From a virus: a DNA stretch of 22,663 nt. The notes beneath the pieces were generated by a model. It was not told where the DNA came from. It made no database searches and saw only the letters and a program-made list of their open reading frames with translations. Shown one piece after another: positions 19,072 to 22,319 of this stretch (the first letter of the stretch is position 1; each line of letters starts with the position of its first letter). The position numbers and the translations under genes were made by a program. The stretch is taken from positions 1 through 22,663 of IMG/VR virus record IMGVR_UViG_3300009130_000149, one strand, 5' to 3'.

Positions 19072-21285
19072 TTAATTTTCTATTAATTTTGAATGTGTTC
19101 CGCTTTGTTTATATCTAGCAAAACTTATATTTATTTTTTCTTTTTCTACTTTAGCGTTAGGTGCATATAAATGCCTATTGCAACCCATTATAGCTAAACC
19201 AGAACTAATAGAAGCATCAAATTTTGTTCTATTATTTATATCGAATTTAGCCCAGTCTCCTAATAATTCATTAAAGTAAACTGTTCCGTAAGATCCATCT
19301 TGCTTAATACCAACATGGTCTTGTATATACATTTCAATAGCAGCAGCGTGTGCTTGCTTTATATCCTCACTTGAGTTTGGTATGCCACCAACTTCTTTTT
19401 CTGCAGTTGATAATTTATTCCAAACTTTATCAGGTCTATTCATCGAATATCCTCTATAACCACGCCTTCTTAAATAATACAATAGACGAGGTTTATTATT
19501 CTCTGCAAGTATAGGCATCCCGTAAAACACAAGTGCCATTAGAACGTCCTCAAAGAATATCTCGGCGGTCTGTGGCCTAGCTATATACTCTAAAAAGAAA
19601 TGATTAGCAGGTGAATCTTCCATACTAAACTTAGTTAAACCATGTAAAGCACCTTTAGATCCTTTACCATCAACTGTTCCTGATATATCATAACTATCAC
19701 AACCAAAACAACCCATGTGAACATTACCTGGTCTTTTTAAACCATTTTTTAGTACAACATTATTTTGTAAATGAGAAGGTGGTGTCCAGCTTAGTTTAAA
19801 TCTACCATTTTTATCTGGATAAAATATAACTTTACTATCTTTCACACCATTTAACCACTGAAAATTACCTGTTGTTATAGTGTTCTCGTATTTAGTTTCT
19901 TCGTTGTAATCTATTTGCTCGTATATTTTTGCTAAATTAAATATACTATTTTTAGTTTCATCTCTGAAAGCATGTTCTTCAGTTCTTGGAAACTGCCTAT
20001 AAAATTCATTTAAAGCATCTCCATCATTTTTTAACCCATCGGCTTCGTTGTTCCAATGCTCTATTATACCTATATCTATAGATTCACCATACGGTCCAAT
20101 AACTTCGGTCTCAGGGGTGTCGAACACAGGTAAGCCATAAGAATCAATGAATCCTTCGTAGTTCCATTCCATAGGTATGAACAAACTATATAATCCCGAG
20201 CTAGTCTGTCCATTTCGGTTTCTTTTTGTAACGTCTGAGGCATAATATAATTTTTTAAAGTTATCTCCACCTTTATCTAAGGCATTTGAAGTAGATCCCA
20301 TCATACATTTACCTATTATTCTACTTCCTAGTCTCAGCGTTGTTTTAGTAACACGCCAGTTATTTAATATATTATCAGGTCTTTCCCATTTACCAGATTC
20401 ATCGTGAACAAGTAATTTTAACTTTTCACCATCATATGAGTTGTCACCTGTATTTTTCCAATCAATAGTTGTATCTAATCCTTCAAGTATTTCCCTTTTG
20501 CTATTTTGGGTAATTGATTTTCTTGTAAGTTTAGATGCTGGTACTCTATAAGCCAGTTCGGTTTTTGGTCGGTCCATTCCATCTTGAATTGGTTTAAAGA
20601 AAAATGGGTAATGGGTTGATATAGGTACAACTTTGTCGGTAAACATTTTTTTTGCATCTGCACCAGTCTTTGATAATATTCCAAATCTACTATCTGATGA
20701 GATGGTAGCTTGGTTAACTGTTTCAGACGATGACATAAAGCTAAATCCAGACCGTCTATTTTTGAGGTAACAAATTCCGTAGCATCTCGTATCTGCCTTA
20801 CATGCTTCCCAGTAAATAAAGAATAATCTATTTGCTTCCCTAAATTCTGGTCTCCCAACATCAATCTTGGACCACTGCAGGTACATATAATGAGTGCCAG
20901 TAATATAAGTATCGTTGCCTTTATTGTTAAACCAAAACCCTTCATCACGGCTGGTAAATTCTTTATCAATGTATGCATACCACTTTTCTTTAAAATCTCT
21001 TGGATAAGTTTCCCAATCAAATATTGTTCGAATTCTTTTAAATTCTATTGGAAGATCTGACGCAGTCCACTTATCGTGTTTGCTATACACATCTTCTGCA
21101 AGTGGTAAAGCAATTTTAAGATTTTGTATTTCATATATTTCTCCTATTTTACCTGTCTTACTTATTACAATTACATCATGTTCTTTATTATAACCATATT
21201 TCCATGACTTAGATTTATTAAGTCTATGTATTGTAGTCCTTTTTATAGGTTCAATAACCTTATATAAAGTTTGCTCGTAAGCCAT
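19072..21285 (-). CDS. terL: Terminase large subunit (packaging ATPase/nuclease)
   Basis: TerL drives DNA translocation into the head by ATP hydrolysis and cuts the concatemer. The ATPase part shows a deviant Walker A at residues 175-182 (KNRRSGFS), Walker B at 289-296 (LKLLVHDE, with D295 and catalytic E296), and a probable coupling motif after it (CMMGSTSN). The nuclease part has an acidic motif at 530-533 (D530, D533 in CDSYDIS), with further acidic and His residues downstream and a terminal part ending in SKLIEN. The Walker A lacks the usual Lys before Ser/Thr and instead has Lys at the front, like lambda gpA (KSARVGYS). It is 737 aa, longer than most TerL but close to crAss-like ones. 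The start overlaps the previous stop in TAATG. Codons for residues ~85-270 differ from the rest, as described under findings. Confidence 0.9.
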   Translation of the reverse strand: MAYEQTLYKVIEPIKRTTIHRLNKSKSWKYGYNKEHDVIVISKTGKIGEIYEIQNLKIALPLAEDVYSKHDKWTASDLPIEFKRIRTIFDWETYPRDFKEKWYAYIDKEFTSRDEGFWFNNKGNDTYITGTHYMYLQWSKIDVGRPEFREANRLFFIYWEACKADTRCYGICYLKNRRSGFSFMSSSETVNQATISSDSRFGILSKTGADAKKMFTDKVVPISTHYPFFFKPIQDGMDRPKTELAYRVPASKLTRKSITQNSKREILEGLDTTIDWKNTGDNSYDGEKLKLLVHDESGKWERPDNILNNWRVTKTTLRLGSRIIGKCMMGSTSNALDKGGDNFKKLYYASDVTKRNRNGQTSSGLYSLFIPMEWNYEGFIDSYGLPVFDTPETEVIGPYGESIDIGIIEHWNNEADGLKNDGDALNEFYRQFPRTEEHAFRDETKNSIFNLAKIYEQIDYNEETKYENTITTGNFQWLNGVKDSKVIFYPDKNGRFKLSWTPPSHLQNNVVLKNGLKRPGNVHMGCFGCDSYDISGTVDGKGSKGALHGLTKFSMEDSPANHFFLEYIARPQTAEIFFEDVLMALVFYGMPILAENNKPRLLYYLRRRGYRGYSMNRPDKVWNKLSTAEKEVGGIPNSSEDIKQAHAAAIEMYIQDHVGIKQDGSYGTVYFNELLGDWAKFDINNRTKFDASISSGLAIMGCNRHLYAPNAKVEKEKINISFARYKQSGTHSKLIEN

Positions 21286-21557
21286 TATTTAGATCTTTTT
21301 TCAGCGAATCCACCAAAAGATTCTTTTTTATCTTCTATAGGTTTATTATCTAAAAGATTTTTTTCATTTTCAATTCTAGTAAGAATTTCAAAAGCATCAA
21401 ATATTGCTAACTTTTTTGTAGCAGCTGCATTTTTTAATCTATCAGCAGAAACATCATCCTCTGTTTGTACTATAGATTCTTCTGCAACTTTTACAAGTTC
21501 GTCTACAGCTTTATAACCAGCTTGGATTATATTCTTTTTCTTTTCCTTTATATTCAT
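21285..21557 (-). CDS. Small helical protein in the small-terminase position, 90 aa
   Basis: A short, charged, fully helical protein: KNIIQAGYKAVDELVKVAEE, then SADRLKNAAATKKLAIFDAF, EILTRIENEKNLL, ending in a basic Gly/Phe tail (GGFAEKRSK). It lies directly before TerL, whose ATG overlaps its stop, which is where the DNA-recognition subunit (TerS) usually sits. Its length is short for TerS (commonly 110-180 aa) and I do not see a clear helix-turn-helix, so TerS is a position-based suggestion. Its start overlaps the upstream gene by 47 bases, and this is the only in-frame Met. It could equally be a small packaging regulator. Confidence 0.6.
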   Translation of the reverse strand: MNIKEKKKNIIQAGYKAVDELVKVAEESIVQTEDDVSADRLKNAAATKKLAIFDAFEILTRIENEKNLLDNKPIEDKKESFGGFAEKRSK

Positions 21558-22098
21558 ATTTAATTGAAATTTCTTTTGTCATTACCCTGTATAATCTTTC
21601 ATCATTTATTGTGAATTCATATTCACTCCACGGGGTAAAACCTATTTTGTCTCCTACTTTTATAAAGTTACTATCGTCTTTATACTTTATAATACCTTGT
21701 AAAGATTTTTCTTTATCAAATGAATATTTATCATCATTTTCTAAAGGTTTAACAAAACAATATCCATTTGTAGCTTTCCATTTATTATTTTTCTTGTGTA
21801 AAAATATTTGATCTGGATAACAAAAATATTTATCGTCTTTAAAATAATCTTTACTATTTCTCTCAATACCTTTTACATCATTCCATCTTCTAAATATATT
21901 ATGATGAACTATTACTTCATCACCGGTTTCTATATCAGATTTAAATAATGTTGGTGTTTTAAGTATAATAGCGTTACGACTTACAAAAAGATGATTACTA
22001 AACTCAGTATTAAGAATAAGCTCATCGTCACCTATTTTCTTTATATTATCGTATCTATTATTTTTTGGCTTTATTAAATAAGAATGTAATGGTCTCAT
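21511..22098 (-). CDS. Tandem GroES-like protein, putative phage co-chaperonin
   Basis: It begins MRPLHSYLIKP, matching the GroES opening (MNIRPLHDRVIVK). Two GroES-like units can be traced. Unit 1, residues 1-102, runs from RPLH through SRNAIILKTP and ETGDEVIVHH (59-66) to DQIFLHK. Unit 2, residues ~109-183, runs from NGYCFVKPLE through KSLQGIIKYK and KVGDKIGFTP (147-156) to DERLYRVMTKEISIKYE. Compare GroES RPLHDRVIVK, STRGEVLAVG, VKVGDIVIFN and EEVLIMSESDILAIVE. The bacterial GroES is about 97 aa with one fold, so this is a duplicated, diverged form. The canonical GGIVL mobile-loop sequence is not visible in either unit. Phage co-chaperonins (T4 gp31, cyanophage and pelagiphage GroES) adapt host GroEL to fold capsid protein, and the location next to packaging and head genes agrees. 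Its start overlaps the previous stop in TAATG. Confidence 0.65.
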   Translation of the reverse strand: MRPLHSYLIKPKNNRYDNIKKIGDDELILNTEFSNHLFVSRNAIILKTPTLFKSDIETGDEVIVHHNIFRRWNDVKGIERNSKDYFKDDKYFCYPDQIFLHKKNNKWKATNGYCFVKPLENDDKYSFDKEKSLQGIIKYKDDSNFIKVGDKIGFTPWSEYEFTINDERLYRVMTKEISIKYEYKGKEKEYNPSWL

Positions 22099-22319
22099 TA
22101 ATATTCCAGATTATACTCTACAGATACTGCCATATTTTTATTAAAATCTTTCCACGGCAGTACATCATTTTCTTTTTTAATATATATAGAAAATTTATCA
22201 TCACCCTCTAATATATCACATATTATATGCCCACCATAAACTTCTTGACCAACTGCATAGTGCATTGCATCGTTTTTATAATCTTTGCCTATACTAATCT
22301 TTCTTATTAGTTTGCTCAT
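22098..22319 (-). CDS. Small unknown protein, 73 aa
   Basis: An in-frame ATG lies 39 bases further upstream at 22358. I prefer the one at 22319 (MSKLIRKISIGKDYKNDAMH) because it reduces overlap with the previous gene to 26 bases and gives a natural N-terminus. The sequence continues YAVGQEVYGGHIICDI and ends in acidic/aromatic residues (SVEYNLEY). It looks like a small beta-rich protein without membrane segments. Its stop overlaps the start of the GroES-like gene (TAATG), so the two are translationally coupled. I do not recognise the family. Confidence 0.55.
   Translation of the reverse strand: MSKLIRKISIGKDYKNDAMHYAVGQEVYGGHIICDILEGDDKFSIYIKKENDVLPWKDFNKNMAVSVEYNLEY

Follow-up and report, generated by a model that had tools for sequence, protein, structure and literature searches.

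The window, by which we mean the whole 22.7-kb stretch of DNA analyzed here (22,663 nucleotides of the virus record IMGVR_UViG_3300009130_000149, a fragment), carries a packaging and structural cluster that consists of a gene for a tandem GroES-type protein, a 90-aa open reading frame (ORF), and genes for the large terminase subunit, the portal and virion structural proteins. The tandem gene occupies positions 21511..22098 on the minus strand, with the ATG at 22098 and the stop codon at 21511-21513, and its 195-aa product is assigned on the basis of the ORF itself, the match to PHROG 13932, an AlphaFold2 model and Foldseek comparisons; the plus strand across the same interval is riddled with stops. 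The ORF from which an earlier note on this sequence predicted two GroES folds in tandem is thus real, its strand is the minus strand, and the motifs quoted there are present in the product, namely MRPLH at the start, ETGDEVIVHH at residues 57-66 and KVGDKIGFTP at residues 147-156. The large terminase gene (19072..21285, minus strand; PHROG 6681, E 9e-169) is a neighbor outside the tandem protein and belongs to the conserved context. The intervening 90-aa ORF (21285-21557, minus strand) shows a weak resemblance to small terminase subunits (PHROG 445, E 0.07) and possibly encodes such a subunit that has escaped recognition. It is overlapped by the tandem gene over 47 nt (21511-21557), and the C-terminal tail of the tandem protein, YEYKGKEKEYNPSWL, which is encoded inside this overlap, is strongly conserved and is missing in the elemo and Cellulophaga-type members; given this location, dual coding may account for its conservation. 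An ORF of about 73 aa located upstream of the tandem gene (22098-22316, minus strand) is kept in all five annotated lineages compared, with 25-51% identity among them and with invariant RKI and WK motifs.

The arrangement recurs among the relatives. In the annotated genomes, the tandem gene lies directly upstream of the large terminase gene, in one case with a small ORF between the two, and a long ORF begins within 700 bp downstream of the tandem gene in 126 loci, a count that skips loci with no long ORF in reach and in which terminase identity applies to the window and the annotated records.

PHROG 13932 ("co-chaperonin GroES") is the sole full-length family match of the window protein (residues 1-177 of 195 against 1-195 of 200, E 1e-12) and is also matched by all 15 relatives tested; a full-length match to another family, which the earlier note had named as evidence against its reading, did not emerge. 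The window protein is a member of this family, which is already known and named GroES, the tandem build being the point absent from a label that is silent on two domains. We found no description of a phage tandem GroES in the open-licence literature, and an account elsewhere is possible. Relatives are present in at least 599 stretches of IMG/VR, and the annotated ones, at 26-38% identity, come from Maribacter phage Panino, Flavobacterium elemo phages, Cellulophaga phages phi38:1 and Calle_1, and a Manatee Spring podovirus; the family is marine and related to flavobacteria-infecting phages. Several relatives (L188, L193, L209, L195, and L200) reside in contigs binned as Woesearchaeota, Pacearchaeota, Euryarchaeota, Maricaulis, and Aliivibrio genomes, which likely represent mis-binned phage DNA rather than true hosts.

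Conventional sequence searches barely reach GroES from this protein. The Pfam Cpn10 profile, proposed in the earlier note as a check, yields a weak, partial match (residues 144-177, E 0.099) that remains under the curated cut-off (13.1 vs 21.1 bits), so that membership in the GroES family rests on profile-profile and fold evidence. Among the relatives, L146 and the Cellulophaga-type members L148 (at residues 110-191) and L149 (at residues 114-192) do pass this cut-off in the C-terminal domain. Searches against NCBIfam returned GroES matches below threshold only, and sequence searches against the PDB retrieved no GroES, which was reached only by structure and profile-profile comparison. Weak matches to NUDIX, Cas6, Connectase and others were rejected as partial, inconsistent across members and below cut-off.

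For the profile-profile comparison, each half of the tandem protein was compared with a profile of single-domain GroES built from 22 sequences from phages of the same kinds, drawn from the same genomes as the tandem genes, together with E. coli GroES, and significance was assessed with 150 column shuffles and with reversed profiles. The N-terminal half scored 29.7 (best shuffle 19.4, reversed 9.9) and the C-terminal half 33.7 (best shuffle 20.1, reversed 14.5), so that none of the 150 shuffles reached the real score for either half. Direct comparison of the two halves with each other was not significant, the score being reached by 9 of 150 shuffles. Hence the repeat is visible through GroES and not as an internal repeat, and a recent internal duplication is unsupported.

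Structure prediction leads to the same two domains. The full-length AlphaFold2 model, computed from an alignment of 82 sequences from the loci (two rows from annotated database records were left out), has a pLDDT of 87.8 and a pTM of 0.80 and displays the GroES-like strand order twice, in an N-terminal domain (residues 1-104; 21787..22098, minus strand) and a C-terminal domain (residues 105-181; 21556..21786, minus strand). In a Foldseek search of the PDB, the top match of this model is the Cpn20-sized chain R of 7ekq (194 aa; TM 0.56/0.56), which covers both domains, followed by 7ekq chain Q and then by GroES/Cpn10 chains; given that single GroES chains yield a TM of about 0.3 when normalized to the query, the value for 7ekq implies that both domains superpose. 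We take 7ekq, titled CrClpP-S2c, to be the Chlamydomonas ClpP complex with Cpn11/20/23, in which chains R and Q are presumably the tandem co-chaperonins and chain P (95 aa) the single-domain one. Folded alone, the N-terminal half gives a pLDDT of 89.6, and its 30 best PDB matches are all GroES, Cpn10, gp31 or 7ekq chains, with modest E-values (8e-3 to about 1) and high top probabilities. In a viral structure library, the best named match is the "Chaperonin cpn10" of Cellulophaga phi18:3 (200 aa). An additional viral model, BFVD A0A516L046 (304 aa), covers the tandem fold with a TMq of 0.73 and is perhaps a fusion of a tandem GroES with another protein. Taken together, the models and profiles render a GroES fold in both domains, along with family membership, well supported, and bear out the two tandem folds predicted earlier.

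The two domains are joined by a tight hairpin (residues 98-109; 21772..21807, minus strand), formed in the model by strands 98-103 and 106-109. In GroES rings, neighboring subunits touch through a pair of strands, contributed by the end of one subunit and the beginning of the next. The tight hairpin is accordingly the route expected for a side-by-side fusion of two GroES domains.

The mobile loops, through which GroES-type lids dock, have fared differently in the two domains. The N-domain equivalent (residues 19-30; 22009..22044, minus strand) is recognizable by conservation and by a predicted hairpin with strands at 19-22 and 25-28; the encompassing region P11-A43 spans 30-34 residues in the 82 sequences. 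Within it, the tripeptide L27-I28-L29 (22012-22020, minus strand) is hydrophobic in 82, 82, and 80 of the 82 sequences at its three positions, respectively, and is followed by an invariant N30; in the elemo phages, this stretch reads NGLILN, aligning with GGIVLT in E. coli GroES and SGLYLG in the single GroES of the same elemo phages. The corresponding region of the C-domain (residues 119-134; 21697..21744, minus strand) is shortened, with P118-G135 spanning 14-20 residues in 78 of the 82 sequences, the window protein included, and 28-29 in four Cellulophaga-type sequences, whose long C-domain loops still read NGLRV or GSIIV, such that both domains keep loops in these members. The suggestion that the loops are altered from GGIVL proves true in this asymmetric sense, and probably both loops are ancestral and one was shortened later. 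For the roof hairpin of GroES, the segment around RILENGEVKP, nothing of comparable length is present in the N-terminal half, in the C-terminal half or in the single GroES of the phages.

The most conserved patch across the 82 sequences is HHN[IV]FR, represented in the window protein by HHNIFRRW (residues 65-72; 21883..21906, minus strand), with H65, H66, N67, and R70 invariant. This patch aligns roughly with N68-Y71 of GroES, where Tyr71 faces the cavity, and so it may face the client. The invariant HHN-x-F-R signature is absent from GroES and may point to an extra function or to another one altogether. Together with the conserved place of the gene upstream of the terminase, beside the terminase and portal genes and away from groEL and groES, the loss of the C-domain loop, and the presence of a dedicated single GroES already beside groEL (see below), it counts against a lid function and agrees with a repurposed GroES fold that has given up its partnership with GroEL and serves as a structural, assembly or packaging factor. 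This alternative draws some weight from the location next to the packaging genes and from the HHN signature, and yet we consider it unlikely because the N-domain loop tripeptide is kept almost without exception, the Cellulophaga-type members retain loops in both domains, and the tandem protein is strongly associated with GroEL and GroES.

This association of the tandem GroES with a single GroES and a GroEL is a new observation of the present analysis. Among related contigs of at least 55 kb (a threshold picked after the table had been seen), a single-domain GroES is encoded in 13 of 13 and a GroEL in 12 of 13, several of these contigs being closely related so that they represent fewer than 13 independent lineages. 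When all 33 contigs tested are counted, a set with many fragments, GroEL is detected in 23, far above the background of 265 among 50,697 phage records. The phage single GroES (82-101 aa) passes the Pfam Cpn10 cut-off and adjoins groEL, and the two lie elsewhere in the genome, at a locus separate from that of the tandem gene; nearly all long contigs possess one tandem and one single gene. The phage GroEL encoded in contig G001 is full length (521 aa) and aligns with GroELs of solved structure over almost the entire protein (E 4e-108). The sole exception among the long contigs is G028, the 72.8-kb contig of relative L148 with a 32-bp terminal repeat, which carries the tandem and the single GroES and in which we found no match for GroEL, so that the two lids appear to go together even without a phage GroEL. 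In the 22.7-kb window fragment, neither groEL nor a single groES was found. A 2017 survey reported GroEL for 36 out of 78 phi38:1-group genomes (PMC5332604), and mass spectrometry has detected the GroEL of phi38:1 in the course of Cellulophaga infection (PMC13288928).

Given these observations, we infer that the tandem protein is probably a roofless lid component for a GroEL ring, most plausibly mixed with the single GroES of the phage and engaged in the folding of large phage proteins. The gene product would consist of two GroES beta-barrels linked head-to-tail by the tight hairpin and would form part of the lid on a GroEL-type ring, with the N-domain docking by its retained LIL tripeptide. 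This ring would most likely be built from phage-encoded GroEL, or from host GroEL in phages that lack the gene. The single GroES and the usual GroEL of the related phages offer a simple answer to the mismatch between a two-domain protein and seven-fold symmetry, and the presence of one tandem and one single gene in nearly all long contigs makes a ring of three tandem molecules and one single-domain GroES (3x2+1=7 GroES domains) the simplest solution. A precedent exists in chloroplasts, where Cpn20-type and Cpn10-type subunits form seven-domain hetero-oligomers, and six- and eight-domain lids function as well (PMC5780408). Given the shortened C-domain loop in 78 of 82 sequences, half of the domains of the tandem proteins may not dock, and in a 3+1 lid about four loops would be left for docking. 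Because both domains lack a roof hairpin, a feature also missing from T4 gp31, we expect an open lid and an enlarged chamber, as in the gp31 case. The clients could be phage proteins of large size, for example the capsid protein; with gp31 as its co-chaperonin, GroEL can fold the capsid protein of T4, which measures 56 kDa (PMC6318259). In its complete form, this proposal would amount to a chloroplast-like three-part chaperonin, capped by a roofless lid of three tandem and one single molecules in which about four of seven domains carry a docking loop, hence asymmetric and partly blank, and dedicated to phage proteins; we advance this fuller version only tentatively and regard it as rather doubtful.

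Two other lid architectures deserve consideration. Three or four copies of the tandem protein alone, providing six or eight domains, might cap GroEL asymmetrically while the single GroES serves apart. The separate loci of the tandem and single genes fit such an arrangement, as do the reports that GroEL accepts GroES/Cpn20 concatemers of six or eight domains and that, in E. coli, Plasmodium Cpn20 can stand in for GroES (PMC5780408). It appears improbable to us, however, because all 13 long contigs, including the one without GroEL, encode a single GroES, and because the loss of the C-domain loop would leave such a homo-oligomer with just three or four docking loops. Alternatively, seven copies would satisfy the symmetry if the N-domains made up the docking ring and the C-domains, which in most lineages are without a full GroEL-contacting loop, a second ring above it that enlarges the chamber. 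This stacked arrangement we judge to be highly improbable: in the model, the tight hairpin joins the last strand of the first domain to the first strand of the second, the pair that in GroES makes the contact between neighbors, and the 7ekq chain matches the whole protein, both domains included.

The closest parallel in build to the phage protein is found in the chloroplast Cpn20/Cpn21/Cpn23 proteins, which likewise fit a head-to-tail pair of GroES domains into about 195 residues, presumably include the solved chain that best matches the full-length model (7ekq chain R), and coexist with a single-domain Cpn10 and Cpn60, as the phage tandem does with a single GroES and usually GroEL. Identity in the structural alignment is about 13%, and the sequences have diverged too far for a reliable tree; the two are likened by build and not by descent. 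Moreover, the phage protein differs in the mostly shortened C-domain loop, the missing roof, the HHN insertion in the N-domain and the location of its gene in a packaging operon. Of the traits expected of a phage analogue of Cpn20, as which the earlier note saw this protein, the head-to-tail pair of GroES domains is present, whereas loops of the GroEL-binding type in both domains are kept only in the Cellulophaga-type members; judging from the sequences, the phage protein may work like Cpn20 at most in part, and we do not class it as a Cpn20 member. With T4 gp31 it shares a phage-encoded GroES fold, the lack of the roof hairpin and, if our proposal for the tandem is right, a large capsid client, but gp31 is a single-domain, heptameric protein that uses host GroEL, whereas the tandem phages have two domains in one protein and usually their own GroEL. 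The single-domain GroES of the same genomes displays the same fold, likewise without a roof and with a loop motif of glycine followed by hydrophobic residues, and differs from the window tandem in its one domain, its place beside groEL and its score above the Cpn10 cut-off, the tandem having two domains, a place in the packaging operon and a score below it.

Chloroplasts and apicoplasts are known to have tandem co-chaperonins, and the fit of a two-domain lid to the seven-fold GroEL ring is a long-standing puzzle there. The combination of a tandem lid, a single lid and usually a dedicated GroEL suggests a virus-encoded folding machine of three parts, in a compact system with cultured representatives, such as Cellulophaga phi38:1, the Flavobacterium elemo phages and Maribacter phage Panino. 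Such a system is suited to direct tests of mixed lids, of the need for seven docking loops and of cavity enlargement for capsid folding. Furthermore, the present analysis sharpens a thin "GroES" annotation for an abundant group of marine phages.
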